A program made the position numbers and the translations under genes. The notes beneath the pieces are model-generated. The model made no database searches, had not been told where the DNA came from, and saw nothing but the letters and a program-made list of their open reading frames with translations. From assembly GCA_903874275.1 (NCBI GenBank), contig CAIQRS010000056.1:1-41021 (forward strand): a stretch of DNA of 41,021 nt, written 5' to 3'. This document shows positions 7,630 to 36,323 of the stretch, one piece after another; position 1 is the stretch's first letter; every line of letters begins with the position of its first letter. Source of the DNA: an uncultured Anaeromyxobacter sp. (lineage in GTDB: Bacteria; Myxococcota; Myxococcia; Myxococcales; Anaeromyxobacteraceae).

Positions 7630-8817
7630 ATGGACATCCCGGCCCTGCAGCAGGCCCTCGCCGCCCAGGAGCTCGACGGCTGGCTCCTCTACGACTTCCA
7701 CGGCCAGAACCCCACCGCCATCGGCGCGCTGGGGCTCGGGGGCCACATGCTCACCCGGCGCTGGGCCTACCTCGTCCCGGCCCGCGGCGAGCCGCGCCTC
7801 CTCGTCCACGCCATCGAGCGGGGCTCCTTCCCGGCCCACGTCCCGGGCCGGCGCGAGAGCTACGCCTCCTGGCAGTCCTTCCGGGCCGGCCTGGAGCGCA
7901 TGCTCGAAGGGCTCCCCGGCCGGCGGCTCGCCATGGAGTACTTCCCCATGGCCGGCATCCCGTACCTCTCGCGGGTGGACGCCGGCACGCTGGAACTGGT
8001 CCGCTCGCTGGGCGCCGAGGTGGTCTCCTCGGGCGAGCTGGTGCAGCAGTTCCTCTACCGCCTCGACGACCGGCAGATCGAGAGCCACGCCCGCTCCTGC
8101 CGGGCCATCGACGAGGCCAAGGACGAGGCCTTCGCCCGGGTGGGCGAGGAGCACCGCCGCGGCCGCGAGCCCGCCGAGCACGAGATCCAGGACCTGCTCA
8201 TGGCCCGCTTCGCCGAGCGCGGCCTCGTCACCGACCACCCGCCCATCGTGGCGGTGAACGGCCACGCCGGCGATCCCCACTACGTGCCGTCTCGGGAGCG
8301 CCCCACGCCCATCCGCGGCGGGGACCTCCTGCTCATCGACCTGTGGGCCCGGGAGCCGCGCGCCGACGACCCCTACGCCGACATCACCTGGATGGCCTTC
8401 TGCGGCGATCGCCCTCCACCCAAGGTGCAGGAGATCTTCCGGGTCACCGCCGACGGGCGCGACGCCGGCTTCGGCCTGGTCGAGCGGGCCTTCCGGGCCA
8501 GGGAGCGGCTCGAGGGCTGGCAGGTGGACCGGGTGGTGCGCGACCACATCGCCTCGAAGGGCTACGGCGAGCGCTTCGTCCACCGCACCGGCCACTCCAT
8601 CGGCTTCGCGTCGCCGCACGGCGACGGGGCCAACATGGACGACCTCGAGACCCACGACACCCGGGTGCTGCTCGAGCGCACCGCCTTCTCCATCGAGCCG
8701 GGCATCTACCTCCCCGAGGAGGGCATGGGGGTGCGGCTGGAGATCGACGTCGTCCTCACTCCGGGTGGACCGCGCATCTACTCGAAGCTCCAGCAGGAGC
8801 TGGTGCGGATCGCATGA
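7630..8817 (+). CDS. M24-family metallopeptidase (Xaa-Pro aminopeptidase-like)
   Basis: 395 residues with a GGAGG ribosome site at 7618-7622. The creatinase-type N-terminal domain (about 1-150) is followed by the pita-bread catalytic domain. Expected metal ligands are visible: D237 (LLLIDLWA), D251 (DPYADITW), H322 (HRTGHSIG), E356 (FSIEPGIY) and E371 (VRLEIDV). The family cleaves N-terminal residues next to proline, although some members act on dipeptides or other amides, so the substrate is open. It follows pyk by 24 bases, and its TGA overlaps the start of the Nudix-MBL gene (ATGA), so the two are co-translated. Confidence 0.93.
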   Translation: MDIPALQQALAAQELDGWLLYDFHGQNPTAIGALGLGGHMLTRRWAYLVPARGEPRLLVHAIERGSFPAHVPGRRESYASWQSFRAGLERMLEGLPGRRLAMEYFPMAGIPYLSRVDAGTLELVRSLGAEVVSSGELVQQFLYRLDDRQIESHARSCRAIDEAKDEAFARVGEEHRRGREPAEHEIQDLLMARFAERGLVTDHPPIVAVNGHAGDPHYVPSRERPTPIRGGDLLLIDLWAREPRADDPYADITWMAFCGDRPPPKVQEIFRVTADGRDAGFGLVERAFRARERLEGWQVDRVVRDHIASKGYGERFVHRTGHSIGFASPHGDGANMDDLETHDTRVLLERTAFSIEPGIYLPEEGMGVRLEIDVVLTPGGPRIYSKLQQELVRIA

Positions 8818-10298
8818 GCGAGGCCCTCCCCGGCATGCCGGCCCCTCCCCCGCCGGCGCGGACCCGCCCGGCCTCCGCGGTGATCCTCTGGCGCGAGGGG
8901 CCGGAGGGGCGCGAGGTCTTCTGGGTCAGGCGCGGGGACGGCCTGCGCTTCGCCGGGGGGTTCCACGCCTTCCCGGGCGGGAGGATCGACGAGGAGGACT
9001 CCCGGGTGCCGGTGGCCGGGCTCGAGGGGGAGGAGGCGGCCCACGTGGCCGGGGCCTGCCGCGAGCTCTTCGAGGAGGCCGGCGTGCTGCTGGCCCGGGG
9101 CGCGGAGAGGCTGCCGCCTGCGGTCCGGGACGAGGCGCGCCGCGCGCTGCTCGAGGAGCGGGTCTCCTTCGCCGACCTGCTCTTCCAGGAGGCGCTGGCC
9201 ATCGACCCCTCGCTGCTCTCCCCGGCCGGACGCTGGGTGACGCCGGAGCCCTTCCCGGTGCGCTTCGACGCCCGCTTCTACCTGGCGCGCTTGCCGGCCG
9301 GGCAGGAGGCATCGGTCTGGCCCGGCGAGCTCTCCGGGGGCGAGTTCGTCTTCACCGGGCGCGCGCTCGCGTCCTGGGCACGGGGCGAGGCGCTCCTCCA
9401 CCCGCCCAACTGGTGGGGCATCACCGCCGTGGACCGCGTCGCGCCGCCGGAGGCGCTGGCGCTGCTCCGCGATCCGCCCGCCGACCTCCTCATCGAGTTC
9501 CAGGGCGGCGTGGTGCTGGCGTCGTTGCGCACCCCCACGCTCCTGCCGGCCATCCACACCAACTGCTGGGTGCTCGATCTCGAGCCCGGTGGCGGGGTGG
9601 CGGTCGTCGATCCCGGGGCTCCCGATCCGGCCGAGCAGGCCCGGCTCGACCGCATCCTCGCCATCATGGCCGCCGAGGGGCGGCCGGCCCGCGAGGTCTG
9701 GCTCACCCACCACCACGTGGATCACGTGGGCGGGCTGGCGCCGCTGGCCGCCCGGGGCCTCCCGGTCCGGGCCCACCCGGAGACGGCCCGGCGCCTCGCC
9801 GGCGGTGCGTCGTTCCTCCCGGTCGAGGACGGCGAGCTCCTGCACGGCCGCTGGCGCGCCCTGTTCACTCCGGGTCACGCGCCCGGTCACCTCTGCTTCC
9901 TCGACGAGCGCAGCGGGGCCCTGGTGGCCGGCGACATGGTGAGCACCCTCTCGACCGTGGTCATCGATCCGCCCGAGGGGGACATGGGGCTCTACGTCTC
10001 GTCGCTCGAGCGGCTGCGCGGGCTCCCGGCCCGCACCCTCTACCCGGCGCACGGGTCTCCGGCCCCCTCGGCGGCCGCCAAGCTCGACGAGTACCTGGAG
10101 CACCGCCGCCTGCGGACCGCCAAGGTCGAGGCGGCCCTCACCCCGGGAGGGACGCTCTCCGAGGTCACCCGGGTCGCCTACGACGACACTCCGCCCTTCC
10201 TCCTCCCGGTTGCGGAGCGGAGCTGCCTCGCCGCCCTCCTCTGGCTGGAGAAGCTGGGGCGGGCCCACCCTTCCGGGGGTATCTGGCGCGGCCCGTAA
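8814..10298 (+). CDS. Nudix hydrolase - metallo-beta-lactamase-fold fusion protein
   Basis: 494 residues with two enzymatic domains. Residues about 19-215 form a Nudix domain of the long NUDT19-like type: FPGGRIDEED, then an insertion, then the box end RELFEEAGV (83-91). Residues about 245-420 form a metallo-beta-lactamase-fold hydrolase resembling LACTB2/glyoxalase II, with THHHVDHVGG (298-307), H355, D374 (VAGDMV) and H413 (PAHG). A helical tail of about 75 residues follows. NUDT19-type enzymes hydrolyse CoA and acyl-CoA pyrophosphate bonds, and LACTB2-type proteins are nucleases or thioester hydrolases. A joint substrate is therefore possible but unproven. The gene overlaps the M24 peptidase stop by four bases. 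Confidence 0.92.
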   Translation: MSEALPGMPAPPPPARTRPASAVILWREGPEGREVFWVRRGDGLRFAGGFHAFPGGRIDEEDSRVPVAGLEGEEAAHVAGACRELFEEAGVLLARGAERLPPAVRDEARRALLEERVSFADLLFQEALAIDPSLLSPAGRWVTPEPFPVRFDARFYLARLPAGQEASVWPGELSGGEFVFTGRALASWARGEALLHPPNWWGITAVDRVAPPEALALLRDPPADLLIEFQGGVVLASLRTPTLLPAIHTNCWVLDLEPGGGVAVVDPGAPDPAEQARLDRILAIMAAEGRPAREVWLTHHHVDHVGGLAPLAARGLPVRAHPETARRLAGGASFLPVEDGELLHGRWRALFTPGHAPGHLCFLDERSGALVAGDMVSTLSTVVIDPPEGDMGLYVSSLERLRGLPARTLYPAHGSPAPSAAAKLDEYLEHRRLRTAKVEAALTPGGTLSEVTRVAYDDTPPFLLPVAERSCLAALLWLEKLGRAHPSGGIWRGP

Positions 10299-10407: not shown

Positions 10408-10905
10408 GTGAGAACCCTCCGCGCCATCGCCATCCTCGCCGTTGCCTTCCTCGTGGGGGCGGCCTCCGCCGAGGGAATCGTGCGGGCCCAGACGGCCCGC
10501 GCCACCGGATCGACTGCGAAGGACGGGTCGGTCGGTGACCTGGTCTCCTTCGAGGTCCGCACCGAGGACGGGGCCACCGTCGCGAAGAGCCGGCTGGTCA
10601 GCCCCGAGGGCAAGCTCGCCTCGGTGGTGGTGCGCGACCCGGCCTCCCCCTCTGCGGTGCGCATGGTGCTCCGGGTCACCACCTCGCGCGAGATCTCCGG
10701 CAGCGTCTGCGTGAACTACGCGGTCCAGATCCCCGAGCTCTCGCTCTCCAGGTCGGGCCGGGTCTGGGTGAAGCCGGGCGTCGAGTCCACGCTCCCCATC
10801 GGCAACGACCTGGTGGCGGTCTTCACCGCGGTGCCGGTCCCGTCCAGGGCCTTCGACCAGCTCATCGGGTCGGAGCGTGCGCGCAAGGCGCCGCGGGCCT
10901 CGTAG
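10408..10905 (+). CDS. Small exported protein of unknown function
   Basis: 165 residues from GTG at 10408, with AGGAA 7-8 bases upstream. The N-terminus is a clear signal peptide (RTLRAIAILAVAFLVGAASA, likely cleaved near residue 21). The mature part is beta-rich, with alternating hydrophobic and polar residues, one Cys, and repeated VxVRD/FEVRTEDG-like strands; no catalytic motif was recognised. The frame is open further upstream, but that part lacks a ribosome site and would bury the signal peptide. The 109 bases before it contain no convincing promoter. It converges on the MORN-repeat gene 23 bases downstream. Confidence 0.75.
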   Translation: MRTLRAIAILAVAFLVGAASAEGIVRAQTARATGSTAKDGSVGDLVSFEVRTEDGATVAKSRLVSPEGKLASVVVRDPASPSAVRMVLRVTTSREISGSVCVNYAVQIPELSLSRSGRVWVKPGVESTLPIGNDLVAVFTAVPVPSRAFDQLIGSERARKAPRAS

Positions 10906-15807: not shown

Positions 15808-17280
15808 CTAAAGGCTTCCCTCGATCTCGATCTGCTCGGCCGTGAAGGTCGTTCCCGTCATCGGAACGCGGCTGCGGGCCTTCACGACCGTGCGCGGCAC
15901 CACCACCAGGTCGAAGAAGGCCGGGGCGGAGATGGCGGCGTCGGAGGAGTCGCGGTACTCGGTGCCGGCGCCCGCCTGCAGGGTGATCCCCAGGATGGTG
16001 AGCCGCCCGGCCGGAACGTCCTTCGAGGAGGCCGGTCCCTGGAGGACGAGCCGGTCGTCGTTGGTGGACTCGACCCGGGTCGCCACGATCTCGCCGGCCG
16101 TTCCGGGAACACCGCGGACCTCGACCGGGCCCGCACCGATGGTGGTCAGGTCGAGCGAGGCCCCGCCGCCCGAGGACTTCCACTCGGTCCAGGCGTCGGT
16201 GCGAACGGTGAGCCCGAGGAGCTGGAAGGACCCCTGGCGTGCGCTCGTGGAGGTGACGCCCGAGACCGGACCCTGGAGCCGCAGGCTGGCGCGGAAGGAG
16301 ACCTTGGCCGCCTGGAGCACGCCGGCGGCGTCGAGCCTTCCCTCCGCCTCGACCTTGACTCCGGGTGCGATGTCGCCGGGGACGCCGTTCTCCCAGCGGG
16401 TCGTGGCGGAGGTCGCGACGGCCTGCCCCTCGACGACGAACTGGACCGACGAGCCGCTGGTGACGATGCCTTCGACCTCGACCTCGGCCTGCGCTCCGCC
16501 CAGCTTCGCGTTCTCGAGCTGGACGGCGGTGGCGGCGAGCGCCCCGGCCACCGGGGCGGCGGCTGCCCGCACCTCGACGTAGGAACCGTCGACGACGCCG
16601 GCCGGGATGGAGGCGCCGACCCCGAGCGTCACCGCGTAGCTGGAGGCCGCGTCGGGCGTGACCTTGAGGGTGAACTTGCCGGCCGCGCGATCGAGGTCGG
16701 AGACGAACCCCTTCACCTCGAAGTCCTCGGCCGAGCCGGTCTCCTTCTCGACGCGGGTGGCCCGGAAATGACCGGTGGCGGTGGCGTGGCCGTGGACGCG
16801 AACCCGCTCGCCCACCGCGACCGACCCGAGCCGGTTCAGGCGATCCTCGAACTCGGTGGCGTGCTCCACCTCCACCTCGTGGCCGCCGACCCGGAGCACG
16901 CTTCCACCCTTGTCGTCCACCTTGCCGCGCAGCACGTGATGGGCCTCGACCTCGGTGGCCCGCCCCGTGCCGGCGGCGTCGTCCTTGGAGCCCTTCACGG
17001 TGACCACCATGCCGACCTTGAGCTCCGACTCGGGGCGCCCGGGGTTGTCGTCGATCCGGATCTGAGCCGTGGAGACGTCGAAGGCGATCCCGTTCACGGT
17101 CAGGCCGCCGCCCGCGGTGACGACCCCGCGGCTGGTGGCGGTGGAGCCCCCCCCGCCGCCACCCCCGTCGGGCGTGGCCGGGTCGGGAGAGGACCCGCCA
17201 CAGGCGGCGACGACGAGCGTGGCGGCGAGGAGGAGAGGAAACTCGAAGCCTGCGAGGTCACTGCGTCGGAGGGAGGTCAT
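15808..17280 (-). CDS. DUF5666-type repeat lipoprotein A
   Basis: 490 residues. The lipoprotein signal ends with lipobox VAAC (Cys 27), then a Gly-rich linker. The rest is a chain of small beta domains of the DUF5666 type, marked by recurring pieces such as GVVTAxxxLTVNGIxF, VRGxVxD, GERVRVHG and VKVEAEGRLDAAGVLxAxKV. I judge roughly five units. Function is unknown; such proteins are predicted surface or periplasmic lipoproteins. It is a full-length paralogue of the next gene. ATG 17278-17280 overlaps the stop of its paralogue (ATGA). It is the last gene of the sigma/caspase block and converges on ntrC. Confidence 0.85.
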   Translation of the reverse strand: MTSLRRSDLAGFEFPLLLAATLVVAACGGSSPDPATPDGGGGGGGSTATSRGVVTAGGGLTVNGIAFDVSTAQIRIDDNPGRPESELKVGMVVTVKGSKDDAAGTGRATEVEAHHVLRGKVDDKGGSVLRVGGHEVEVEHATEFEDRLNRLGSVAVGERVRVHGHATATGHFRATRVEKETGSAEDFEVKGFVSDLDRAAGKFTLKVTPDAASSYAVTLGVGASIPAGVVDGSYVEVRAAAAPVAGALAATAVQLENAKLGGAQAEVEVEGIVTSGSSVQFVVEGQAVATSATTRWENGVPGDIAPGVKVEAEGRLDAAGVLQAAKVSFRASLRLQGPVSGVTSTSARQGSFQLLGLTVRTDAWTEWKSSGGGASLDLTTIGAGPVEVRGVPGTAGEIVATRVESTNDDRLVLQGPASSKDVPAGRLTILGITLQAGAGTEYRDSSDAAISAPAFFDLVVVPRTVVKARSRVPMTGTTFTAEQIEIEGSL

Positions 17281-18803
17281 GGGGTGTTTCCCTCGATCTC
17301 CAGCTCCTCGGCGGTGAAGGTGGCGCCCGAGAGTGCCGCCGCGTCCCGGCCGCGGGCCTTCACCACGCTCTGGTCCGGGGTCACGGCGTCGAAGAAGGCC
17401 GCCGCGGTGAGCGAGCCGTCGTCCATCGCGCGGAACGAGGCCGCGCCGCCCGCCTGGACGGTGATCCCGAGGATGGTGATGGTCCGTGCCACGGTGTCCT
17501 CGGCCGAGACCGGCCCCTGGAGGATGATGCGATCGTCGTTGCGCGGCTCGACGCGGGTGGCGATCACGTCGATGCCGTTGCGGGCACGGTAGCCGCGGAC
17601 CTCCACCGGCGCGGTGCCGAGGTTGGAGAGCGAGATGCCGCTTCCCCTCCCCGACGACTTCCACTCGGTCAGTGCGTCCACGTGGACGGTGAGCCCGAGG
17701 ACCTGGAAGGTGCCCACGCCCGGGGCGATCTCCGAGGCGCTCGAAGGGGCTGCCTGGAGCCGGACGTTCCAGCGGAAGGAGACCTTGCGGGCGACGAGGA
17801 TTCCCCCTGCATCGAGGGTTCCCTCGGCCTCGACCTTCACTCCGGGGAGCAGGTCCGCGGGGAGGCCGTTCTCCCACGTGGTGGTCGCCGACGTGGTGAC
17901 CGCCTGGGCGCCGATGGAGAAGGCCGTCGCGCTTCCGCCCGTCACCAGCCCCTCCACCTCGACCTCGTCGTTCTCCGCGCCGATCCGGTCGTCCTCGAGC
18001 TCGACCGCGGTGGCGGTGATGGCGCCGGCGGCGGGCTTCGCGGCCGCGCGGACCTCGACGAAGGAGCCGTCCTTCATCCCGACGGGCAGCGAGGCGCCGG
18101 CGGCGAGCGCGACCTGGTAGAGGTCGGCGCCGTCCGGCGTCATCCGCAGCGCGAAGGTCGGAGGCACGGCGGTGGCGGCCAGGCCCGCGACGAACCCCTT
18201 CACCTCGAAGTCCTCGTGGCTGCCCGCCTCCTTCTCGATGCGGGTGGCCCGGATCGAGCCGGTCGCGGACCGATGCCCGGAGACGCGGACCCGTTCCCCG
18301 GGCTGGATCGAGTCCTCGCGGCGGGTCTCGTCCTCGAACTCGGTCTCGTCCTCGATCTCGACCTGGTGGCCGCCGACACGCATCCGGTTGCCGCCCTTGT
18401 CGTCCACGATGCCGCGCAGGTCGTCGTCGAAGGAGACGATCGCGGCGCGCCCGGCGCGACCGTGGATCTCGCCGCGGACCCGGACCACCTGCCCCTTGCG
18501 CAGCTCGGACTCGGTCCGCTTCTCCCCCTCGACCCTGACCTCGGCGGTGCCGGTGTCGAAGCGGACGCCATTCACGGTGAGTGGCGAGAGGGCGGTGACC
18601 ACCCCCCGCGATCCGGCGGTGAGAGCCGCCGTCCCGGTGGGGCCCGTCGCGCCTGTGGGTCCGGTCGTGCCCGTCGGCCCGGTCGTGCCCGTCGTTCCGG
18701 TGGTACCGCTGGATCCGCCGACGCCGGTGGACGTGCCACCGCAGGCCGTGAGGAGTGCCGCTGCCAGGAGACCGATCGAGTGATTCCACTTCGTGCCGTT
18801 CAT
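17277..18803 (-). CDS. DUF5666-type repeat lipoprotein B with collagen-like stretch
   Basis: 508 residues from ATG at 18801-18803, preceded by GGAG at good spacing; an in-frame upstream extension is rejected because it would bury the signal peptide. Lipobox LTAC gives lipidated Cys 21. Residues about 33-59 are nine G-x-x triplets (GTT, GPT, GAT types), a collagen-like stalk. Then come DUF5666-type beta domains that align with lipoprotein A throughout, including VKGFVxxL, SxVEVRAAA, WENGxPxDxxPGVKVEAEG and ILGITxQAG. The two probably arose by tandem duplication, with the collagen-like stalk only here. A candidate promoter and a perfect palindrome lie just upstream. Confidence 0.85.
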   Translation of the reverse strand: MNGTKWNHSIGLLAAALLTACGGTSTGVGGSSGTTGTTGTTGPTGTTGPTGATGPTGTAALTAGSRGVVTALSPLTVNGVRFDTGTAEVRVEGEKRTESELRKGQVVRVRGEIHGRAGRAAIVSFDDDLRGIVDDKGGNRMRVGGHQVEIEDETEFEDETRREDSIQPGERVRVSGHRSATGSIRATRIEKEAGSHEDFEVKGFVAGLAATAVPPTFALRMTPDGADLYQVALAAGASLPVGMKDGSFVEVRAAAKPAAGAITATAVELEDDRIGAENDEVEVEGLVTGGSATAFSIGAQAVTTSATTTWENGLPADLLPGVKVEAEGTLDAGGILVARKVSFRWNVRLQAAPSSASEIAPGVGTFQVLGLTVHVDALTEWKSSGRGSGISLSNLGTAPVEVRGYRARNGIDVIATRVEPRNDDRIILQGPVSAEDTVARTITILGITVQAGGAASFRAMDDGSLTAAAFFDAVTPDQSVVKARGRDAAALSGATFTAEELEIEGNTP

Positions 18804-18841
18804 GTCCGCTCCGTTCGGGGAGAATTGGGTGCCATCCTTCT

Positions 18842-18860
18842 GGGCAAGTGACACTTGCCC
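18842..18860. promoter_or_regulatory. Perfect 19-bp palindrome before the DUF5666 pair
   Basis: GGGCAAGTGACACTTGCCC, arms of nine with one central base. It overlaps the proposed -10 box of the ECF-type promoter. A one-base loop is sterically poor for a hairpin terminator and no T-run follows on either strand, so an operator is the better reading. Confidence 0.45.
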
Positions 18861-18876
18861 TGGACGGCACGGGACA
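18848..18876 (-). promoter_or_regulatory. Candidate ECF-sigma promoter for the DUF5666 lipoprotein pair
   Basis: On the minus strand TGTCCCGT (18876-18869), 15 bases, TGTCAC (18853-18848). The same two boxes, with 16 bases between them, precede the ECF sigma gene (23502-23473). The start codon is 45 bases further on. The match was found by comparing the two upstream regions of the same cluster. Confidence 0.5.
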
Positions 18877-18902
18877 TTTCTCTTGCGGCGGAGCCGGGCG
18901 AA

Positions 18903-20672
18903 TCAGCGCCCGGAGAGGAAGGTGGGCGTGTTCACGGTCGCGCCAGGCTGCCCGGTGCCGGTCTGGCCGCGGTCGTTCGCGCCCCAGCACTGCACGGACC
19001 CGTCGGTGAGGAGCGCGCAGGCGTGGTTGCCGCCGGCGGCGACCGTGTTCGCGGTCCCGACCAGGCCGGTGAGTGTCACGTCCACCTTGCCGGTCGCGGT
19101 GGGAGCACCGGTGAGCTGGCTCTGCCCGTTCGCGCCGAAGCACTTGATCGTGGCCGAACCCGGCTCCAGCGCGCAGGCGTGGGCGCGCCCCGTGGCGACG
19201 AGCCCCGGGGAGAACCCGCCGCCGAGCGAGGGGGCGACCGGCGCGAGCTGGATCACCGGAGGTGGGGGCGAGGTGGTCACCTGCCCCTCGCCGTTGTCCC
19301 CCCAGCAGAGGAGCTGCGGCGTCGCCCCTGCGATGGCGCAGGAGAAGGCCTGGCCTGCCGCGAGGAAGGCCGCCGTGGGGAGCCCGGAGACGGCACGCGG
19401 GAGGCTGCTCTGCGCGGTGCTCCCGTCGCCCAGCTGCCCGGATCCGTTCGCGCCCCAGCAGGCGAGCCCGCCCGGTCCGGCCGCGCAGGTGTGCCGCTCC
19501 CCGGCCGCCAGCGCCGAGGCGGTGGCCACGCCGGAGACCGCGCGCGGGATGCTGCTCTGGGCCGTGCTCCCGTCCCCGAGCTGGCCGGAACCGTTGGCTC
19601 CCCAGCAGACGAGCCCGCCCGAACCGACCGCGCAGGTGTGGCCGAAGGGGGCGGGGGGGGAACCGCCCACCCCGCCGCCGGCGGCGATGGGAAGCGGCGC
19701 CGACGCGGAGACCGGCGCGGCCACCCCGGCGACCCCGGGGACCAGGACCGGCGTGGTGGAGAACGGCCCGGCCACGCCGGAGCCCAGTTCACCAGTGGTG
19801 TTGTCGCCCCAGCACCAGACCTGGCCGCCGGGGGAGAGGACGGCGCAGGCATGGGCCCATCCGGTCGCGAGCGCGACCGCCCGGGCCGGGGCGGGGGGAA
19901 GCCCGATCACCCTCCCCGGAACGGGCCGGAAGGTGGTCGAGCCGTCGCCGAGCTGCCCGCGGTCGTTGGCGCCCCAGCAGCTCACGCGGCCGTCGTCGAG
20001 CAGCGCGCAGCCAAATTCGCCACCGGCAGCGACCGCCGCGCCCCTGCAGCACCCGCCGTCGCAGCGCAGGAAGCCCGGGTTGCAGGCGAAGGCGCAGGCG
20101 CTCCCCTCGCAGAGCGGCGAGGCGTTGGGTGGAGCGGCGCAGGCGAGGCAGGCCGCGCCGCAGTGGGCGGCGTCGCCGTCGGCGAAGCACGAACCGCCGC
20201 AGGCGTGGTTGCCGGCGTCGCAGGCGAGGGTGCACGTCCCGGCGCCGAGGGCCGGCCCGGGCTGGCATACCCCGCGACCGGGACCGGTGGTGGGCCCCAC
20301 GCACGGCTCGCAGGTGGTCCCGCAGGAGAGGTCGTTCTCCACCTGGCAGGAGGCGGCGCCTCCGGGCGGAGCCGCGCACAGGCGTGCCGGGCTGTTGCAG
20401 CTGAAGCCACAGGCCCCCTGCACGCAGGCCGGGCTCGCGCTGGCTGGCGGGACGCAGGTCACGCAACCGCCGCCGCACTTGAGGAGGTCTCCCTGGCAGA
20501 CGTAGTCGCAGGCGCCGCCGGGGTTGCACACCGGGCTGCCGCCCGCGGGTGCGGTGCAGGAGCAGGTGGACGGGACGAGGCTCGCCCCGTCCTCGTCGAC
20601 GAGCGTCCTCGTGCAGGCGGGGGTCGCGAGCGCCGCGGCGACGAGGAGGGAGAGGAGCGGGGCGTTTCGCAT
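18903..20672 (-). CDS. Cys-rich exported protein with seven RCC1-type beta-propeller repeats
   Basis: 589 residues. Signal peptide with a non-canonical lipobox ATPAC (possible lipidated Cys 20). Residues about 37-210 are Cys-rich (over 25 Cys) in C-x-x-GxC and CGGxCxxC patterns, probably disulfide-bonded. Residues about 213-589 hold seven RCC1-type units, each with a xxHxCAL...CWGANxxGQLGDGST pattern. Seven blades close a complete propeller. Such proteins are common on myxobacterial surfaces; partners are unknown. It starts one base after the caspase-gene stop. Its own stop is followed by 99 bases carrying a new promoter candidate. Confidence 0.88.
   Translation of the reverse strand: MRNAPLLSLLVAAALATPACTRTLVDEDGASLVPSTCSCTAPAGGSPVCNPGGACDYVCQGDLLKCGGGCVTCVPPASASPACVQGACGFSCNSPARLCAAPPGGAASCQVENDLSCGTTCEPCVGPTTGPGRGVCQPGPALGAGTCTLACDAGNHACGGSCFADGDAAHCGAACLACAAPPNASPLCEGSACAFACNPGFLRCDGGCCRGAAVAAGGEFGCALLDDGRVSCWGANDRGQLGDGSTTFRPVPGRVIGLPPAPARAVALATGWAHACAVLSPGGQVWCWGDNTTGELGSGVAGPFSTTPVLVPGVAGVAAPVSASAPLPIAAGGGVGGSPPAPFGHTCAVGSGGLVCWGANGSGQLGDGSTAQSSIPRAVSGVATASALAAGERHTCAAGPGGLACWGANGSGQLGDGSTAQSSLPRAVSGLPTAAFLAAGQAFSCAIAGATPQLLCWGDNGEGQVTTSPPPPVIQLAPVAPSLGGGFSPGLVATGRAHACALEPGSATIKCFGANGQSQLTGAPTATGKVDVTLTGLVGTANTVAAGGNHACALLTDGSVQCWGANDRGQTGTGQPGATVNTPTFLSGR
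19386..19641 (-). repeat. Near-identical adjacent RCC1 units (direct DNA repeat)
   Basis: Two stretches of about 109 bases, 19386-19494 and 19533-19641, are highly similar at DNA level with a period of 147 bases (49 residues). They encode the paired GLVCWGANGSGQLGDGST and GLACWGANGSGQLGDGST units. This suggests recent blade duplication or homogenisation inside the propeller. Confidence 0.6.
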
Positions 20673-20673
20673 C

Positions 20674-22188
20674 CTAGAACCCGAAGAGCAGGAGCAACCC
20701 GGCCGAGGCGCCTGGCCGGACGACCGTCGTGTCGTTGAGCCTGTAGATCTGGGCCGATGCGCTGGCGTCGAGCCCGAGGCGGAGCGGACCGATCGGGAAC
20801 GAGGCCATGACCGCCGCTCCGGCGCCGAGGATCCCCGACGAGAAGGCGGGGGCGGCGGGCAGGCTCTGGGCCGCGTATCCCCCGGTGAGCTGCGGTCCGA
20901 TCTCGAGGAAGAAGGCGCTCTCGGTGACGGGCCAGAGCAGCGCCACGGAGCCTCCGAAGTACTGGAACTGGTAGTCGATGGACCCGCCATTGACGTTCTT
21001 GCCGGCCCAGTCGAAGGCCACCCGGAGCCCCACCGGGCCGAATTCCTTGCGCACCCCGACCCGGACCGATGGTGCGACGCCCAGCCCCTTCAGGTCGAAC
21101 CAGGCGATCCCGCCCTGGGCGAAGGCCAGGTTGGGCTTGGGGCCTCCCTTGGCGCGCGCCACCTCGTAGCGCGTGGGCGAGAGGAGCGGCAGCTGCAGGG
21201 TCGCGCCCGCCGCGAGGACGACCTCGCCGGTGGCCCTCCCGTCGGGAGAGCGCCGCTCGACGGCGTAGCGGCCGGCGGGGAGCGCCAGCGAGAGCGGCGT
21301 GGCCTGGGCCGGCACCTCGGCGAGGACCCCCCGCGGCCCGCGCAGGAAGTAGGTGGAGCCCGGGTCGGCCGGGAAGACCAGCCGGGACTCCGCCTTCCGG
21401 AGGTCGGCCAGGACGACGTCGCCCCGCCCCGACATGCGGAACTCGTAGGTGGGGTGCTGGATGCCGGTCTGCGTGCCGGCGGTCTGGGCCACGGTGCGGG
21501 CCGAGGTGTAGCGGAAGGCCTCGGCGAGGGTGACCTGCCCGTCGCCGTCGGCGTCGGCCGCCCCTCGCAGCCCCACGTCGAGGTGGTGGGTGAAGAAGCT
21601 TCCCCCCAGCGCCGCCGACTCCTGGGCGGCTTCCCCCACCGCCGCCGAGGTGATGAAGGCCGTGCCGCGGGCGCTCTCGTCGCTGGGAAGCGGGAAGTCG
21701 ATGGCCGGCGCCGGCCGGGCTCCCTTCACCTGGGTGAGCCCTCCGGACTCGCAGGCGTCGAGGATCACGATCCGGGTGTCGGCCTGCGACGCCGCCGTGA
21801 GCGCGCGCAGCTCCTGGTACGAGAAGGTGTCGTTGCCGAGCTCGAGACCGACCGACCCGGCGTGGCCGGAGAAGTAGACGACCAGGAGCGCCCGCTCTCC
21901 GGAGCGGCGGGTGGTCTGGATGCGGGCCTCGGTGGCGGCGAAGGCCTCGCGCATCGCCGCGGCGCTCCTCCCCTTGAGGACGACGACCCGATCGTCGGTG
22001 AAGTCTCCGAGCTCGAGGAGCGCGGACCGGACGCGGTCGGCGTCCTTCTCGGCGAAGTAGAGGCGTGGCCGGCCGGCCGCGCCCGCGTCGTTCCCCACGA
22101 CGATGGCGAAGCGGGCCGCGGCGTGCGCGGCGCAGGGCACGATCGCGACGGCGATGGCCGCCGCCGCGATGACGGCCCGCAGGCTCAA
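20674..22188 (-). CDS. Exported caspase-family (peptidase C14-like) protein with C-terminal beta-barrel-like domain
   Basis: 504 residues from a TTG start (22186-22188) that overlaps the anti-sigma TGA as TTGA and has GAAGG upstream; a longer frame exists but would hide the signal peptide (MSLRAVIAAAAIAVAIVPCAAHA). Residues about 26-250 are a caspase-fold domain with catalytic His H109 (VVYFSGHAG) and Cys C146 (VILDACESGG). An EF-hand-like loop DADGDGQVTLAE (212-223) may bind calcium. Residues about 265-345 are beta-rich and PEGA-like. Residues about 350-504 have alternating amphipathic strands ending in LLLLFGF, with a terminal Phe as in outer-membrane beta-barrels. The predicted place is the periplasm, anchored in the outer membrane. 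Confidence 0.85.
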   Translation of the reverse strand: MSLRAVIAAAAIAVAIVPCAAHAAARFAIVVGNDAGAAGRPRLYFAEKDADRVRSALLELGDFTDDRVVVLKGRSAAAMREAFAATEARIQTTRRSGERALLVVYFSGHAGSVGLELGNDTFSYQELRALTAASQADTRIVILDACESGGLTQVKGARPAPAIDFPLPSDESARGTAFITSAAVGEAAQESAALGGSFFTHHLDVGLRGAADADGDGQVTLAEAFRYTSARTVAQTAGTQTGIQHPTYEFRMSGRGDVVLADLRKAESRLVFPADPGSTYFLRGPRGVLAEVPAQATPLSLALPAGRYAVERRSPDGRATGEVVLAAGATLQLPLLSPTRYEVARAKGGPKPNLAFAQGGIAWFDLKGLGVAPSVRVGVRKEFGPVGLRVAFDWAGKNVNGGSIDYQFQYFGGSVALLWPVTESAFFLEIGPQLTGGYAAQSLPAAPAFSSGILGAGAAVMASFPIGPLRLGLDASASAQIYRLNDTTVVRPGASAGLLLLFGF

Positions 22189-22922
22189 CGGACCTTCTCG
22201 AGGAGCATCGTGGCCTGCGCCGCCCCGTCCGGCAGCCCCGTGAGGCCCGCGCCGCGGCGCAGGGCGTCGGGATCCCCGGCCACCGCTCCCCGGATCGACC
22301 TCTCCACCTGGGCGAGCGGGACGGCGTCCACGCTGCACACCGCGTAGAGCCGCTCCGGGCCGGCCTCCCCGTCGAGGGCCACCCCTCCGGGAAGCGTCGT
22401 CGCCCCCGTCACCGGGGCGGGCCCGTCGCCCTGCGCGGGGAAGAGGCGCGAGACCTGGCCCCCGGCGTCGACCGAGAGAAGCCAGAGGCTACACGGGCGT
22501 CCGGACGACACCCGGAGGCGAAGCAGCGCGGCCGCAGGTACGCGGTCGCCGTCGGCGACCTCGCGGGCCCCTTCGACCGAGCCCGCCCAGACCTGCATGG
22601 AGAGCGCGGTGCCCTTCACGCCCAGGTAGTCGGCGGGCGGCCGGGGAGTGAGGACCAGCAACGCCGCCGCCACGGCGAGCCCACCCACCGGGACCAGCGC
22701 TCCGAGGAACCTGGCCCACCCGCTTCCCGGAGCCTCCCGCGCGGCGAGCAGCCGGTCGACCGTGCGCGGGTGGACGAAGCGGCGGAACTCCTCCCCTTCC
22801 CGCTCCATGCGGGCGAGCCTCGCCCGGCAGGCGGCGCAGCCCTCCACGTGGGACCCGAGCGTGGAGCGGCCCTGGTCGAAGAGGTGTGCCTCGAGCGCCA
22901 TCTCGGAGGCGCAGCGGGTCAT
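22185..22922 (-). CDS. Anti-sigma factor with membrane segment and DUF4384-like exported domain
   Basis: 245 residues. The cytoplasmic N-terminus has the anti-sigma zinc-finger pattern H25-x3-C29-x2-C32. One membrane helix (about 72-91) follows. The exported part (about 105-245) resembles DUF4384: SGRPCSLWLLSVDAGGQVSRLFP, a TTLPGG turn and PERLYAVCS, a module often linked with caspase-fold proteins. ATG 22920-22922 overlaps the sigma gene stop, and its own TGA overlaps the caspase TTG. By context it should hold the ECF sigma factor at the membrane and release it on an envelope signal; the signal is unknown. Confidence 0.87.
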   Translation of the reverse strand: MTRCASEMALEAHLFDQGRSTLGSHVEGCAACRARLARMEREGEEFRRFVHPRTVDRLLAAREAPGSGWARFLGALVPVGGLAVAAALLVLTPRPPADYLGVKGTALSMQVWAGSVEGAREVADGDRVPAAALLRLRVSSGRPCSLWLLSVDAGGQVSRLFPAQGDGPAPVTGATTLPGGVALDGEAGPERLYAVCSVDAVPLAQVERSIRGAVAGDPDALRRGAGLTGLPDGAAQATMLLEKVR

Positions 22923-23455
22923 GGGAGGGCACCCTCGTCCGATTCGGCAGTGCCGGTTCCCGTGCGGGCCAGGAACTTCCGGGCGTTCTCGAGGAAGCGG
23001 CCGAGCTTTCGCGAGACGGTCCGGCGGGAGATTCCCAGGACGGCCGCGATCTCCTCGTGCTCCATGCCATCGACGAGGACGCCCACCGCGATCGCCTGCG
23101 TCTCCCCGTCGAAGCGGGAGAGCACGGCCTGGGCGAGCTGCCGGTCGGGGTAGGCGTCGGGCCCGTCGGCGCGCACGTCCGGCACGACCTCGAGGTCCTG
23201 GGCCAGCCCGTCCTGGCCCCGCCTGCGCGAGTCCCGTCGGACGTTCAGGCAGTGGTTCATCGCCACCCGGTAGACCCACGGGAGGACGGTTTCCCTGTCC
23301 TTCAGCCGATCCATGTCCCGCAGCAGCTTCACGAAGACCTCCTGCGTGGCATCCTCGGCGGCTGCCCGGTCGCCGAGCAGGCGGAGGCACCGGCGGTAGA
23401 CCACCGGGCCGAGCTCCCTGTAGAGCCGGCTGACCTGGCTCCTCGGGTCTTCCAC
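22919..23455 (-). CDS. ECF-type RNA polymerase sigma factor
   Basis: 178 residues from GTG at 23453-23455, chosen because AGGAGG lies four bases upstream and the length fits the family; the open frame runs further upstream across the proposed promoter and lacks sigma similarity. Region 2 spans about 8-75 (YRRCLRLLGDRAAAEDATQEVFVKLL, LPWVYRVAMNHCLN) and region 4 about 110-162, with the helix-turn-helix HEEIAAVLGISRRTVSRKL. There is no extra C-terminal domain. First gene of the chain sigma, anti-sigma, caspase, RCC1 protein; the first three are linked by four-base overlaps. It carries the same upstream boxes as the DUF5666 pair, so autoregulation is likely. Confidence 0.93.
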   Translation of the reverse strand: MEDPRSQVSRLYRELGPVVYRRCLRLLGDRAAAEDATQEVFVKLLRDMDRLKDRETVLPWVYRVAMNHCLNVRRDSRRRGQDGLAQDLEVVPDVRADGPDAYPDRQLAQAVLSRFDGETQAIAVGVLVDGMEHEEIAAVLGISRRTVSRKLGRFLENARKFLARTGTGTAESDEGALP

Positions 23456-23472
23456 GCTGCCTCCTGACTTTC

Positions 23473-23502
23473 GTGACACGTGGGGGGTATCGGGACGGGA
23501 CA
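23473..23502 (-). promoter_or_regulatory. Candidate autoregulated ECF-sigma promoter before the sigma gene
   Basis: On the minus strand TGTCCCGT (23502-23495), 16 bases, TGTCAC (23478-23473). It matches the element before the DUF5666 pair (spacing 15). A start point about seven bases after the -10 box would leave a very short leader before the GTG at 23455, which is a caution. The inverted repeat GGGACA-N7-TGTCCC (23497-23515) overlaps the -35 box. Confidence 0.45.
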
Positions 23503-26626: not shown

Positions 26627-27493
26627 CTACCACCTCCTCGATCGGTCCTCGGGAACGATCCTGCGCAAGGTGTAGATGTCCGTTCCGGATAGCTCCTCCC
26701 GGTGCACGGGCAGGGATTCCCAGGGATCCCAGACCGCGCTGATCAGGCGTCCGGTGATCCCGTCGCTCGCACGCGAGGCGAGGAAGACGGCGAGTGCAGC
26801 TCCCCTCTCCGGCGAGGTGCCCCCGCTCTCCTTCTGCGCGACGGCCTTTCGGAAGAATTCCTCCCCCACGACGTCCGGGCCCGCCGCCAGCACCTCGTCG
26901 AGCATCCGGGTGTTGAGCGCGCCGGGCGCGATGCAGTTGACGTCGATCCGATCGGGGGCGAGCTCGACGGCCAGGGTCTCCATGTAGCGCACGACGGCCG
27001 CCTTGGAGGCGGCGTAGGCGGACAGGCGGGGCATGGGTGCCGTCGCCCCTCCGCCGGACAGCTGGATGATCTTCCCCTCACCGCGCTGCCGGAGGCGGGG
27101 AATCATCTCCCGGGTCAGGAGCACCGCCCCGAGCAGGTTCACCTGCAGGGCCTCGACCCATTCCTCCCAGTCATTCCGTTCCGCCGGCCCCTTGGGCCCG
27201 TAGATCCCGGCACAGTTCACGAGCACGTCGAGCCCAGGGATCTCCCCCGTGGCCCAGGCCGCAAGTTCCTCGACTTCCGCCGGCCTCGATACGTCGCAGG
27301 GCTTTCCGAGCACCTGCTGACCCGGGCCGGCGATCGAGGAGAGTTCGTGGCTCGTCGCAGCCAGCGCGACGGGGTCGCGAGCGCAGATGGCCACGCTCGC
27401 GCCCTGGCGAACGAATCCGCCTGCGATGGCTCGCCCCAGCCCCTGGCTTGCGCCGGCGATAAGTGCGCCTCGCCCCTCGAGAATCCTATTCAC
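26627..27493 (-). CDS. SDR-family oxidoreductase
   Basis: 288 residues. Rossmann NAD(P) motif GASQGLG (14-20), NCAG (93-96), and catalytic S146, Y160 and K164 (SAYAASK) are all present, so an active short-chain dehydrogenase/reductase is expected. The GTG start overlaps the stop of the nucleotide-sugar dehydrogenase gene by eight bases. It is the last gene of the glycan cluster and most simply reduces or oxidises a keto-sugar intermediate or the nucleotide sugar; the substrate is inferred only from context. Confidence 0.88.
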   Translation of the reverse strand: MNRILEGRGALIAGASQGLGRAIAGGFVRQGASVAICARDPVALAATSHELSSIAGPGQQVLGKPCDVSRPAEVEELAAWATGEIPGLDVLVNCAGIYGPKGPAERNDWEEWVEALQVNLLGAVLLTREMIPRLRQRGEGKIIQLSGGGATAPMPRLSAYAASKAAVVRYMETLAVELAPDRIDVNCIAPGALNTRMLDEVLAAGPDVVGEEFFRKAVAQKESGGTSPERGAALAVFLASRASDGITGRLISAVWDPWESLPVHREELSGTDIYTLRRIVPEDRSRRW

Positions 27494-28796
27494 GGTCGTC
27501 CCCTTCGGTTGACGGAACGCCCACCGCCACGTAGTCCACGTCCGAGCCGGCGAGTTCGTTCGCGAGGAACCGGTTCGGGTCCAGGACCAGCCGGCGCCGC
27601 ATGCCCGAAAGAACGCTCCGGAGATCGAGGCCCCGGAATTCTGGCCACTCCGTTGCGACCACGAGCGCCGACGCCCCTTCCACCGCAGCGGCAGGGCCGT
27701 TCCGGAGGACGATCAGGCGTGCCAGGTCGAGGGGCAACTCGCGGATCGCGGGGTCGTATGCCTGGACCCGCGTGCCCCCGTTGGCAAGGTGCGCGCAGAG
27801 TTCCACCGCGGCGGACCGCCTGAGCGTGTTGGTTCCGGGCTTGTAGGTGAGTCCCCACACGGCAACGGTCTGGTCCGCCAGGGAACCGATCCTGCGCTCG
27901 AGCTGCCTCCATGCCCAGTGCTTGTGCCATTCGTTCGAGGGCCGGACGGAGGAGAGAAGTCCGAGCTCGAGGCCATTTTCCCGCCCGATTCCGTCCAGGA
28001 ACGCCACGTCCCGCGCCAGGGTCCCCCCGGCGAAGGCCGCTCCAGGGGCCAGGTAGGCCCGTGGGCCGATGCGCACTTCGGACTTGAGTCCCCGCTCGAC
28101 CTCCTTCGCGTCGGCGCCGACGCGTTCGCACACCGCGGCGATCTCGTTCGCGAACGTGACGGAGACCGCCAGGAAGGCGTTGAGCGCGTGCTTGGTCATC
28201 TCCGCCGACTCCACCGACATCCACTCGATCCGGTCGGTGATGGGGGCGAGGAGCCGCGCCGCCACCTCCTGGGCCGCGCGGTCCCTCACTCCCACCACCA
28301 CCCGGTCGGGAGCCGTGAAGACCTCGATGGCCTTTCCGAGCCGCAGGTTCTCTGGGGAGCAGCCGAAGTGGGCCCGCACGGCCGGGCGACCGGCCTTGAA
28401 GGCTCTCTCCAGGCGCGCCACGCTGCCTACCGGCAGTTGGGAGGAGACCAGCACCAGGACGCCGTCGTCCAGGTGCGGGAACAGCTGCTGCGCTTGCCCC
28501 ATCACGCTCTCGACGTCCGCTCGGTCGGCGGCGTCCACGGGGGTGTCGTGGGCGATCCAGGCCACCTCTGCTCCCGCAACCGCGGCGGGGTCGGTCGTGA
28601 AGCACAGTCGCCCCGCGCCGAGGTTGCGGGCCACCATCTCGGCGAGCCCCGGCTCGCTCACCGGAGGGACACCGCGCAAGAGCCCCTCCACGAGGGAAGG
28701 ATCCCGGTCTACGCCGACGACCGTGTGACCGCGCTCGGCCAGGCAGGCTGCGGTCACGACTCCCAGGTGCCACAGTCCTTGGACGCAGACCTTCAT
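27486..28796 (-). CDS. UDP-glucose/GDP-mannose dehydrogenase-family protein lacking the catalytic Cys
   Basis: 436 residues with the three-domain layout of nucleotide-sugar 6-dehydrogenases: NAD-binding GLWHLGVVTAACLAERGH at the N-terminus, the central dimer helix with K202 and N206 (EMTKHALNAFLA), and a C-terminal sugar-nucleotide domain with VWGLTYKPGTNTLRRS. The nucleophilic Cys of the GGxCxPKD motif is replaced: the segment reads AFAGGTLARD, with T259 at the Cys position and D263 kept. Two-step oxidation to a uronic acid through a thiohemiacetal is therefore doubtful; one-step oxidation or another reaction on a heptose nucleotide is possible. It sits between the transaldolase and SDR genes. 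Confidence 0.88.
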   Translation of the reverse strand: MKVCVQGLWHLGVVTAACLAERGHTVVGVDRDPSLVEGLLRGVPPVSEPGLAEMVARNLGAGRLCFTTDPAAVAGAEVAWIAHDTPVDAADRADVESVMGQAQQLFPHLDDGVLVLVSSQLPVGSVARLERAFKAGRPAVRAHFGCSPENLRLGKAIEVFTAPDRVVVGVRDRAAQEVAARLLAPITDRIEWMSVESAEMTKHALNAFLAVSVTFANEIAAVCERVGADAKEVERGLKSEVRIGPRAYLAPGAAFAGGTLARDVAFLDGIGRENGLELGLLSSVRPSNEWHKHWAWRQLERRIGSLADQTVAVWGLTYKPGTNTLRRSAAVELCAHLANGGTRVQAYDPAIRELPLDLARLIVLRNGPAAAVEGASALVVATEWPEFRGLDLRSVLSGMRRRLVLDPNRFLANELAGSDVDYVAVGVPSTEGDDRE

Positions 28797-28805
28797 CCGG
28801 AGCGC

Positions 28806-29531
28806 TCAGAGCTGGAAGCCAGCCGACACCGCGTCGCCGCGGAACATCTTCACCGTCTCGAGGGAGTACTCCTCCAGGTCACGCCCGACCAGTTCCAGCT
28901 TCTTGAGGACGTCGTGGGTCACCGTGATCACGTGGCAACCCACCGCGTCGGCCTGGAAGACGTTGAGGAGTTCGCGCGGGCTTGCCCAGATCAGTTCCGC
29001 CGCGGGGGCAGGGCGGAGCAACTCGACGCACGCCGCCATCAGCGGGACCGGGTCGCGGCCCGTGTCGGCAATCCGGCCGGCGAAGACCGAGACGTAGCTT
29101 GGAACCGCTGGGTCGAGGGCCGCTACCACGTTGCCGACCTGGGCCGGCGTCATGATCGCCGTCACGTTGAGCTTCACTTTCCGGGCAGAGAGCCGCCTCA
29201 CCAGCGCACAGGCCGACTCCTTCCGCGTGTTCGTGACCGGGATCTTCACATAGACGTTCTGGCCCCAGCTGGCGATCTCAAGGGCCTGACGCTCCATCTC
29301 CACGAAGTCGTCGGAGAAGACCTCGAAGGAGATCGGCTTGTTCCGGATGTCCCGTAGGACCTGTGCCGCGAAGGCCCGGTAGTCTGTCACGCCGGCCTTC
29401 CTCATCAGGGTCGGGTTTGTGGTCAGACCTTGGATGAATGGCTTCCGTGCCATCTCCCGCATGCCGGCGAGGTCGGCACCGTCGGCGAAGATCTTCACCT
29501 TGAGGTCAGCGATGCGCTTGTCCATGGGCAT
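28806..29531 (-). CDS. Transaldolase-family protein (heptose-cluster type)
   Basis: 241 residues, a short TIM-barrel transaldolase related to the TalC/FSA group. Marks: FADGADLAGM, TTNPTLMRKAG, the Schiff-base lysine K96 in NVYVKIPVTN, and a late SPRELLN/ITVTHDVL segment. Within a GDP-heptose cluster the likely role is to make sedoheptulose 7-phosphate, the substrate of the GmhA-type isomerase encoded two genes upstream. Two in-frame ATGs (29529-29531 and 29523-29525) share one GAAGGG site, so the exact start is uncertain by two codons. The start overlaps the phosphatase gene by 26 bases. Confidence 0.87.
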   Translation of the reverse strand: MPMDKRIADLKVKIFADGADLAGMREMARKPFIQGLTTNPTLMRKAGVTDYRAFAAQVLRDIRNKPISFEVFSDDFVEMERQALEIASWGQNVYVKIPVTNTRKESACALVRRLSARKVKLNVTAIMTPAQVGNVVAALDPAVPSYVSVFAGRIADTGRDPVPLMAACVELLRPAPAAELIWASPRELLNVFQADAVGCHVITVTHDVLKKLELVGRDLEEYSLETVKMFRGDAVSAGFQL

Positions 29532-30051
29532 TTCCCTTCAGGATGAATTCGGCCGCCTCCTCCAGCGAGGCAACCTGGGCGTCCTGGCCGGTCGGCTTTC
29601 GCTCGTCGTACCCGTGGTCGACGAAGATCGTCCTGCATCCGGCCGCCAGGCCCGCCTCGATGTCGCGCCAGCGGTCTCCCACCATGTAACTCTCGGCCAG
29701 GTCGACGCCAAACACGCTCGCCCCTGCCAGGAGCATGCCGGGGCGCGGCTTGCGGCACTCGCACCCGTCGGCGTCGTCGTGGAAACAGACGAGGAACCGA
29801 TCGATGGGGAGCAGCAGGGCCAGCCTCTCGTGGATCTCCTCGATGGCCTCCCGCGTGGCCGTGCCGCGGGCGACGTCGGGCTGGTTGGTGACCACGATCA
29901 GGCGGAACCCCGCCGCCGACAGCGCCTCCAGCGCCCGTCCCACACCGGGAAGGATCTCGATCTCGGCCACCGTCGAGGGCGGAAATGGCTTCCCGCTTCG
30001 CACCGTCGCGCGGTTGATGACTCCGTCGCGGTCGAGGAACACGGCCCGCAC
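29506..30051 (-). CDS. gmhB: D,D-heptose bisphosphate phosphatase (GmhB-like, HAD-IIIA)
   Basis: 181 residues from GTG. The HAD nucleophile motif is FLDRDGVIN (D7, D9), motif II is VVTNQPDVARG, and the zinc loop reads CFHDDADGCECRKP, giving the C-x-H...C-x-C set typical of GmhB. The final motif is MVGDRWRDIEAG. GmhB removes the C7 phosphate from D-glycero-D-manno-heptose 1,7-bisphosphate. It lies between the isomerase and transaldolase genes, one base after the isomerase stop. Confidence 0.92.
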   Translation of the reverse strand: MRAVFLDRDGVINRATVRSGKPFPPSTVAEIEILPGVGRALEALSAAGFRLIVVTNQPDVARGTATREAIEEIHERLALLLPIDRFLVCFHDDADGCECRKPRPGMLLAGASVFGVDLAESYMVGDRWRDIEAGLAAGCRTIFVDHGYDERKPTGQDAQVASLEEAAEFILKGNAHGQAHR

Positions 30052-30052
30052 G

Positions 30053-30664
30053 CTAGCCCCCTGCCGGACCGGCGCTGGACTCCCACTTGGTCGGGTTCTG
30101 CTTCAGCCGGGGGTGCGAGACGAGCAGGTGCCAGATGACGGCCTGGAAGGCCTCTGAGTGGGGTGTCACCGTGTCGGGGTTCACCGTGGGAACCACCACG
30201 CAGGCGTCGGCGACCTGGGCCGTGTACCCGCCGTCGCGCCCCACCACCCCGGCCACCCGGGCACCCACCGATTTCGCGTACCGGAGGGCGGTCACGAGGT
30301 TGGGGCTGACGTTCCTCTCGAGGCTGCCCCCTCCGACGGAGAGCACGAAGACCGCGTCGCGGGCTGCGAGACGGCTCGTTCGCAGCCACTCCACGAAGAC
30401 GCTCGCCCACCCGTCGTCGTTGGTACGGGCCGTCAACTCGGACACGTTGTCGGTGGGGGCGTAAGACTCGATCCCGGCGATCTTCCGGAAATCGTTCACC
30501 GCGTGCGAGCAGTTCCCCGCGCTCCCGCCCACGCCCAGGAAGAAGAGGCGTCCGCCGTCCTCCCGGAGGCGCACGAGCAGGTCCGCGACCTTCTCGATGG
30601 CCACGTGATCGAGCTTCTCGATGATCTGGGAGGTTTCCCGGAGGTGCTGCCTTGCGTAGCTCAT
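30053..30664 (-). CDS. gmhA: Sedoheptulose 7-phosphate isomerase (GmhA-like SIS protein)
   Basis: 203 residues, SIS fold, with the phosphosugar loop FLGVGGSAGN (43-51), SVGGGSLERNVSPN (109-122) and a C-terminal helix with H169 and H179 (PHSEAFQAVIWHLL). GmhA converts sedoheptulose 7-phosphate to D-glycero-D-manno-heptose 7-phosphate. Compared with E. coli GmhA the HFAAE metal site appears as H54-x3-D58 (HAVND), so one acidic ligand is Asp instead of Glu; this is my own alignment by eye. ATG overlaps the guanylyltransferase stop (ATGA). Confidence 0.87.
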   Translation of the reverse strand: MSYARQHLRETSQIIEKLDHVAIEKVADLLVRLREDGGRLFFLGVGGSAGNCSHAVNDFRKIAGIESYAPTDNVSELTARTNDDGWASVFVEWLRTSRLAARDAVFVLSVGGGSLERNVSPNLVTALRYAKSVGARVAGVVGRDGGYTAQVADACVVVPTVNPDTVTPHSEAFQAVIWHLLVSHPRLKQNPTKWESSAGPAGG

Positions 30665-31365: not shown

Positions 31366-31403
31366 GTCTCCAGATCCCTCCAGCGCAGGGGTCCCCTGAC
31401 CGG

Positions 31404-36282: not shown

Positions 36283-36323
36283 CGGGTCGCCGCCCCCATT
36301 GCCCTGCTCCGGGATCGAGGATG

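Follow-up and report, generated by a model that had tools for sequence, protein, structure and literature searches.

A conserved myxobacterial gene module that joins an extracytoplasmic function sigma factor and a membrane anti-sigma factor to an exported caspase

Organisation of the locus

The subject of this analysis is a block of six genes from an uncultured Anaeromyxobacter sp. (Myxococcota; order Myxococcales; assembly GCA_903874275.1), which runs from an extracytoplasmic function (ECF) sigma factor through a membrane anti-sigma factor to an exported caspase and three lipoproteins. The block lies on a stretch of 41,021 nucleotides (the window), which is contig C56 (CAIQRS010000056.1) of a 285-contig genome totalling 5.07 Mb. 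Its first four genes – those for the sigma factor, the anti-sigma factor, the caspase and one lipoprotein – are a conserved module. The genes and associated features are as follows.

23474..23502, minus strand: promoter-like motif 1, TGTCCCGT-N15-GTGTCA, 47 bases before the sigma start codon
22919..23455, minus strand: ECF sigma factor (P0001); GTG start at 23455 with an AGGAGG ribosome-binding site; Sigma70_r2 match at 1.2e-15
22185..22922, minus strand: anti-sigma factor (P0002); ATG start; zinc-type helical domain in the cytoplasm (HxxxCxxC), a single transmembrane helix, then a flexible linker (K103-G104) and a DUF4384-like domain
20674..22188, minus strand: exported caspase (P0003); TTG start; signal peptide, caspase domain 25-262 (H109, C146), K155-G156 in a disordered loop, beta-sandwich 268-332, predicted 8-stranded barrel 353-503
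18903..20672, minus strand: fourth-gene lipoprotein (P0004); ATG start; lipobox, LVD motif (CTRTLVDEDG), Cys-rich region, seven RCC1 blades
18849..18876, minus strand: promoter-like motif 2, TGTCCCGT-N14-GTGTCA, 73 bases before DUF5666a and found likewise in a second locus of the genus (L036)
17277..18803, minus strand: DUF5666 lipoprotein a (P0007); ATG start; collagen-like Gly-x-Thr stretch
15808..17280, minus strand: DUF5666 lipoprotein b (P0006); ATG start; 56% identity to DUF5666a

All six genes lie on the minus strand (15808-23455), in the order given by the original prediction and at coordinates that were essentially correct; the end of the block that it placed at 23502 is the first base of a promoter motif and not the start of the sigma gene, which is 23455. 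The three four-base overlaps that it reported are real: sigma/anti-sigma (22919-22922), anti-sigma/caspase (22185-22188) and DUF5666a/DUF5666b (17277-17280). A single base separates the caspase and RCC1 genes, while the gap between the RCC1 gene and DUF5666a is 99 bases and contains the second promoter-like motif. The six genes form two transcription units: genes 1-4, and the DUF5666 pair with its own copy of the sigma-gene promoter motif.

The first gene encodes a typical ECF sigma factor of about 180 amino acids, with regions 2 and 4 only (Sigma70_r2, 1.2e-15; Sigma70_r4_2, 26.5 bits against a Pfam cut-off of 25.7), which scores 73.6 bits against TIGR02937 (cut-off 42.9).

Conservation across the Myxococcota

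A search with the anti-sigma factor found it in 100 of the 145 genomes of the order, and nearly all of the best loci carry sigma factor, anti-sigma factor and caspase consecutively. When 84,980 species genomes were scanned with an alignment of the caspase, 80 loci were recovered, almost all from Myxococcota. Together with the window these hold 84 caspase genes: 60 directly follow an anti-sigma gene, 57 of these with the sigma gene as well, and many of the others lie at contig ends or in a swapped order (caspase, lipoprotein, sigma, anti-sigma). In loci chosen by anti-sigma similarity alone the caspase is present in 69 of 75, and adjacent in 66. Across 195 Myxococcota genomes from 90 genera the anti-sigma factor occurs in 156 genomes and 68 genera, and the caspase in 162 and 71. 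The module genes are often present in multiple copies, frequently at least seven per genome (seven caspase candidates were scored in each).

Conservation of gene order in related genomes had been named as the test that could refute the original prediction. Genes 1-4 pass it and genes 5-6 do not: among the loci compared, DUF5666 genes are confined to the window (two), to L036 from the same genus (one) and to L042, where a short one lies upstream of sigma. The DUF5666 pair is a feature of this genus that was added locally, so the six genes taken together do not make up a conserved system. That the DUF5666 genes are not conserved with the remainder is what might be expected if the genes were chance neighbours, or loosely co-regulated with no common mechanism; for genes 1-4, however, this is already contradicted by an order kept across the phylum, rearranged order included, and we consider it highly improbable as an account of the locus.

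A predicted outer-membrane caspase

The product of the third gene matches Peptidase_C14 (Pfam, 1.8e-8) and has the caspase fold, a catalytic His and Cys, and an acidic residue two positions before the Cys; this residue, D144, stands at the position of the S1 aspartate of metacaspases. Its 57.9 bits against the model for EACC1-associated caspases (NCBIfam NF047832) fall under the 140-bit threshold for that family. The H109/C146 dyad is invariant in 43 sequences, and the odd-looking members that were checked still hold the His and D-x-C. A subclass of these caspases (L210, L178, L182, L204 and similar) has DACRTP or DTCESG at the active site, mostly SAHA for SGHA, and longer open frames.

In the predicted structure (predicted local distance difference test, pLDDT, 89.5), a caspase domain (residues 25-262) is followed by a beta-sandwich (268-332) and by a barrel of exactly eight strands (353-503). 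In Foldseek the N-terminal part of the model matches metacaspase 9 as well as caspases, and its C-terminal part matches NspA, OmpA and OmpX; this supports the outer-membrane location first proposed from sequence alone. Since barrels of the NspA/OmpA/OmpX type start and finish in the periplasm, the protease domain should face that compartment; on the strength of the model, the caspase should therefore be anchored in the outer membrane with its protease in the periplasm. A check for plasmid carriage of the caspase found none.

The anti-sigma factor and paired Lys-Gly sites

P0002 has the features of a membrane anti-sigma factor: it adjoins the sigma gene, carries the sequence HVEGCAAC, and has helices at residues 7-62 and one hydrophobic stretch. 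The zf-HC2 model is matched by 10 of 39 anti-sigma relatives and not by P0002 itself. A DUF4384-like extracytoplasmic part had also been predicted, and this held: the match is weak in P0002 (1.5e-4; 22.2 bits, below the Pfam cut-off of 27), and DUF4384 is matched in 17 of the 39 relatives. In the structural model (pLDDT 86.9), helices on the cytoplasmic side lead into a membrane segment, followed by a linker of low confidence (residues 91-107) and a compact outer domain; a Foldseek search with it gave no match under E 0.001.

Both proteins carry a conserved Lys-Gly pair in a flexible segment. In the caspase, residues 155-168 are disordered in the model (pLDDT under 50) and open with K155-G156, which is invariant in 43 sequences; in a wider set the loop has Lys in 120 cases and Arg in 10, and of the four without either most reflect a search pattern matched at the wrong place. 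In the anti-sigma alignment (39 sequences) Gly104 is the sole invariant column and follows Lys or Arg; it belongs to the low-confidence linker, immediately outside the membrane. Orthocaspases cleave after basic residues (PMC6426788), and K103-G104 is a candidate site for the site-1 cut in the periplasmic part of the anti-sigma factor.

The pair [KR]-G is present in 138 of 140 caspase-linked anti-sigma factors compared to 4 of 11 without a nearby caspase (Fisher p 3.7e-8, with L039 scored by alignment); the other 7 of the 11 have lost the basic residue. Of the Anaeromyxobacter relatives without [KR]-G, one genome (G032) has no caspase of this family and two (G014, G019) have only a distant one. 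We regard the link between caspase presence and [KR]-G as suggestive; the invariance of the pair is itself the stronger evidence.

Our data lead us to propose, as the probable explanation, that the caspase makes the site-1 cut in its own anti-sigma factor, in an ECF module that spans the whole envelope. A caspase that signals by binding would be a different matter: its periplasmic domain would dock on the DUF4384-like domain, much as the signalling domain of FecA does on FecR, and the dyad would serve self-processing only. Such a mechanism is in keeping with the FecIRA-like layout of outer-membrane barrel, periplasmic domain, anti-sigma factor and sigma factor, and with DUF4384–orthocaspase fusions recorded elsewhere (PMC8283722). 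It fits less well with a dyad that is intact in every member examined, or with an invariant anti-sigma residue that sits in the flexible linker and not in the domain. We judge docking without cleavage of the anti-sigma factor to be quite unlikely.

The fourth gene and the DUF5666 lipoproteins

The gene that follows the caspase usually encodes a lipoprotein. In Anaeromyxobacter and its neighbours this is a Cys-rich RCC1 propeller (P0004 is RCC1-like in Pfam at 1e-47); other lineages have a ZU5-like, beta-helix or unassigned protein in its place. Fourth genes share a motif behind the lipid-bearing Cys (for example CGDTLVDH, CGEGLFDARG and CTRTLVDEDG), which occurs in 19 of 27 fourth genes and in 6 of the 51 other lipoproteins that these loci encode (Fisher p 2.5e-7, uncorrected for kinship and with a pattern composed after the sequences had been seen). 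ZU5-like lipoproteins stand beside caspase genes, as the fourth gene or behind the promoter motif, at L042:8840-9373, L043:4621-5583, L053, L054 and L052. In animals, ZU5 is present in the caspase-activating protein PIDD.

Pfam finds four stretches of DUF5666 in each of the pair of downstream lipoproteins (1e-38 and 9.4e-41). In DUF5666a a collagen-like Gly-x-Thr/Pro run directly follows the lipobox (window 18620-18720).

The original prediction held that the caspase processes these neighbouring lipoproteins, a claim for which we obtained no specific support: lipoproteins as substrates were rejected, their compared N-termini showing by eye no common or conserved basic-Gly site, and the lipoproteins differ completely between lineages. 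It is the anti-sigma factor that holds a conserved candidate cut site, and hence the anti-sigma factor that we favour as candidate substrate. The lipoproteins return as substrates if the caspase is an output and not a sensor: envelope stress would then reach the sigma factor by way of the anti-sigma factor and another protease, and the caspase, as an effector under sigma control, would act on lipoproteins or on outer-membrane proteins that have been damaged. It is common for autoregulated ECF operons to include genes for their effectors, and here caspase and lipoprotein are both co-encoded with the sigma factor; furthermore, the N-terminal lipoprotein motif could serve as a recognition tag. 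Yet the invariant basic-Gly site is in the anti-sigma factor, while the main domains of the lipoproteins vary by lineage, and the caspase stays with the sigma pair far more faithfully than does any single lipoprotein domain. An effector role alone is thus unlikely in our estimation, if less so than signalling by docking.

A shared promoter motif

The motif TGTCCC-N-GTGTC was derived by comparing the two upstream regions of the window. In the form TGTCCCGT-N13-17-GTGTCA it has two matches in the window from which it came, one before sigma and one before DUF5666a, against 0.00 expected by chance, and the looser TGTCCC-N14-17-GTGTCA has one further match elsewhere in the genome. In L036 the motif precedes both the sigma and the DUF5666 gene, and in L037 and L042 it precedes the gene after RCC1. 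In 15 related loci (514 kb, both strands counted) a degenerate version has 20 matches, none of them inside a called gene; these lie mostly before sigma, the remainder mostly before exported proteins or lipoproteins. In 11 of the 15 loci, the same loci from which the degenerate consensus was built, it stands 40-80 bases before the sigma domain, compared to 0.6 expected. As read from the DNA, then, a common putative promoter motif connects the DUF5666 genes to the sigma factor.

Two other possibilities were rejected. A GAAC-type ECF -35 promoter before sigma found no consistent match. Neither does the pattern define a large genome-wide regulon: beyond the modules 31 of 52 matches fall inside genes, and because most of these genome matches are intragenic the regulon looks local. 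In L036 the motif also occurs (at 16074) before an exported protein several kb past the module, the homologue of which lies at window 10408-10905.

A model for signalling across the envelope

Gene order and its conservation, the folds, the catalytic dyad, the conserved Lys-Gly sites and the shared promoter motif are established by computation. The trans-envelope ECF module that they support, in line with the envelope signalling first suggested, might work as follows. The sigma factor would be retained at the inner membrane by the anti-sigma factor, and the barrel would anchor the caspase in the outer membrane facing the periplasm. An event at the outer membrane or surface, in which the co-encoded lipoprotein probably takes part, would activate the caspase, which may cleave both itself, in the inter-subunit loop at K155-G156, and the anti-sigma linker at K103-G104, just outside the inner membrane. 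A site-2 protease – the genome has four PF02163 matches above cut-off – and cytoplasmic proteases would then free the sigma factor. Through the TGTCCC-N15-17-GTGTC promoter it would transcribe its own operon and nearby genes for exported lipoproteins, in this locus the DUF5666 pair.

Several observations weigh against cleavage of the anti-sigma factor by the caspase. Among anti-sigma factors unlinked to a caspase, L136, L146 and L202 retain Lys-Gly and L044 retains Arg-Gly; the linked L087 and L088 have Met-Gly, with caspases that keep the loop Lys-Gly. On the tree, the joint loss of caspase and Lys-Gly does not reach significance (of four supported independent pairs 0.9 agree with the prediction and 0 go against it), caspase loss being so rare that there are too few independent losses. 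Lys-Gly could, moreover, be structural, marking the start of the first strand. To these must be added the sub-threshold DUF4384 match of P0002 and the degenerate promoter consensus tested on its own source loci.

Relation to known systems

The module would add a new protease and a new layout to the ECF systems that signal through regulated proteolysis. It shares with DegS-RseA-RpoE of E. coli an ECF sigma factor, a one-pass anti-sigma factor, an expected periplasmic site-1 cut near the membrane and a site-2 protease in the genome; DegS, however, is an inner-membrane PDZ serine protease, whereas the candidate site-1 enzyme here is a same-operon caspase on an outer-membrane barrel. With FecI-FecR-FecA it has in common a co-encoded sigma factor, anti-sigma factor and outer-membrane barrel transducer, yet FecA is a 22-stranded TonB-dependent transporter with an N-terminal signalling domain and the protein described here has an 8-stranded barrel, a caspase domain and an added lipoprotein partner, which sets it apart from FecIRA.

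A precedent for a caspase-like protease relieving an ECF sigma factor exists: Csx29 cleaves Csx30, an inhibitor of an ECF sigma factor, and so frees it (Craspase/CASP-sigma; Cas7-11, Csx29, Csx30; PMC10028731). The cut in our case is a candidate one, and Craspase differs in being a cytoplasmic, RNA-activated CRISPR (clustered regularly interspaced short palindromic repeats) system with a TPR-CHAT protease and no barrel. None of the genes called in the window was recognised as Cas7-11 or as part of a CRISPR locus, though no CRISPR-specific search was made there. Cyanobacterial orthocaspases combine the caspase fold with DUF4384, to which they are found fused; in contrast to the present arrangement both domains are on one protein, and the available portions of the two accounts mention no anti-sigma factor or outer-membrane barrel (PMC8283722, PMC7475262). 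ECF41 promoters (TGTCACA-n16-CGTC; PMC3426412) resemble our motif in -35/-10 layout and spacing, but ECF41 sigma factors have a fused regulatory domain rather than a separate anti-sigma factor of this kind.

Each part is known, and the module as a whole appears undescribed: the literature searched contained no account of sigma factor, anti-sigma factor and caspase together, of a caspase built onto an outer-membrane barrel or of Lys-Gly sites paired between the two proteins, although a mention in the 2021 ECF reclassification or its supplements is possible.

To our knowledge, bacterial caspase homologues mostly lack a known physiological role outside phage defence and proposed cell death. This widespread multi-copy family brings its own transcription switch together with candidates for its substrate, its cut site and its regulon, which makes its function directly testable. 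If the model is correct, bacterial caspases would gain a testable job in signalling and join the known routes of ECF sigma release across the envelope, and, in a phylum whose surface behaviour is complex, the outer membrane would be linked to transcription. More tentatively, myxobacteria may possess many parallel signalling channels of this kind. Each would pair an outer-membrane caspase with a surface lipoprotein in which the LVD tag is constant and the head behind it exchangeable (an RCC1 propeller, a ZU5-like or beta-helix domain, or another); the caspase would read the lipoprotein and free its own ECF sigma factor by a Lys-Gly cut of the anti-sigma factor, as a caspase-based counterpart of FecIRA and DegS in one. 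We put this wider scheme forward with less confidence than the cleavage on which it depends.

Genomic setting

The block is flanked by glnB-ntrB-ntrC and glnA, and the same site is occupied in L036, L040 and L043. Paralogous sigma and anti-sigma genes without a caspase (L044, at G000:C274:17614-18339, and L039) lie beside a PAS-type sensor protein and a second GlnB. With the module among glnB, ntrBC and glnA, and a caspase-free paralogue beside the second GlnB, a link to nitrogen control is possible.

Elsewhere in the window, judged by eye, positions 8814-10298 encode a protein with a NUDIX-like N-terminal and a metallo-beta-lactamase-like C-terminal part, and positions 26627-38285 hold a cluster resembling those for heptose/sugar-nucleotide and glycan synthesis (phosphoheptose isomerase, nucleotidyltransferase, kinase and epimerase).

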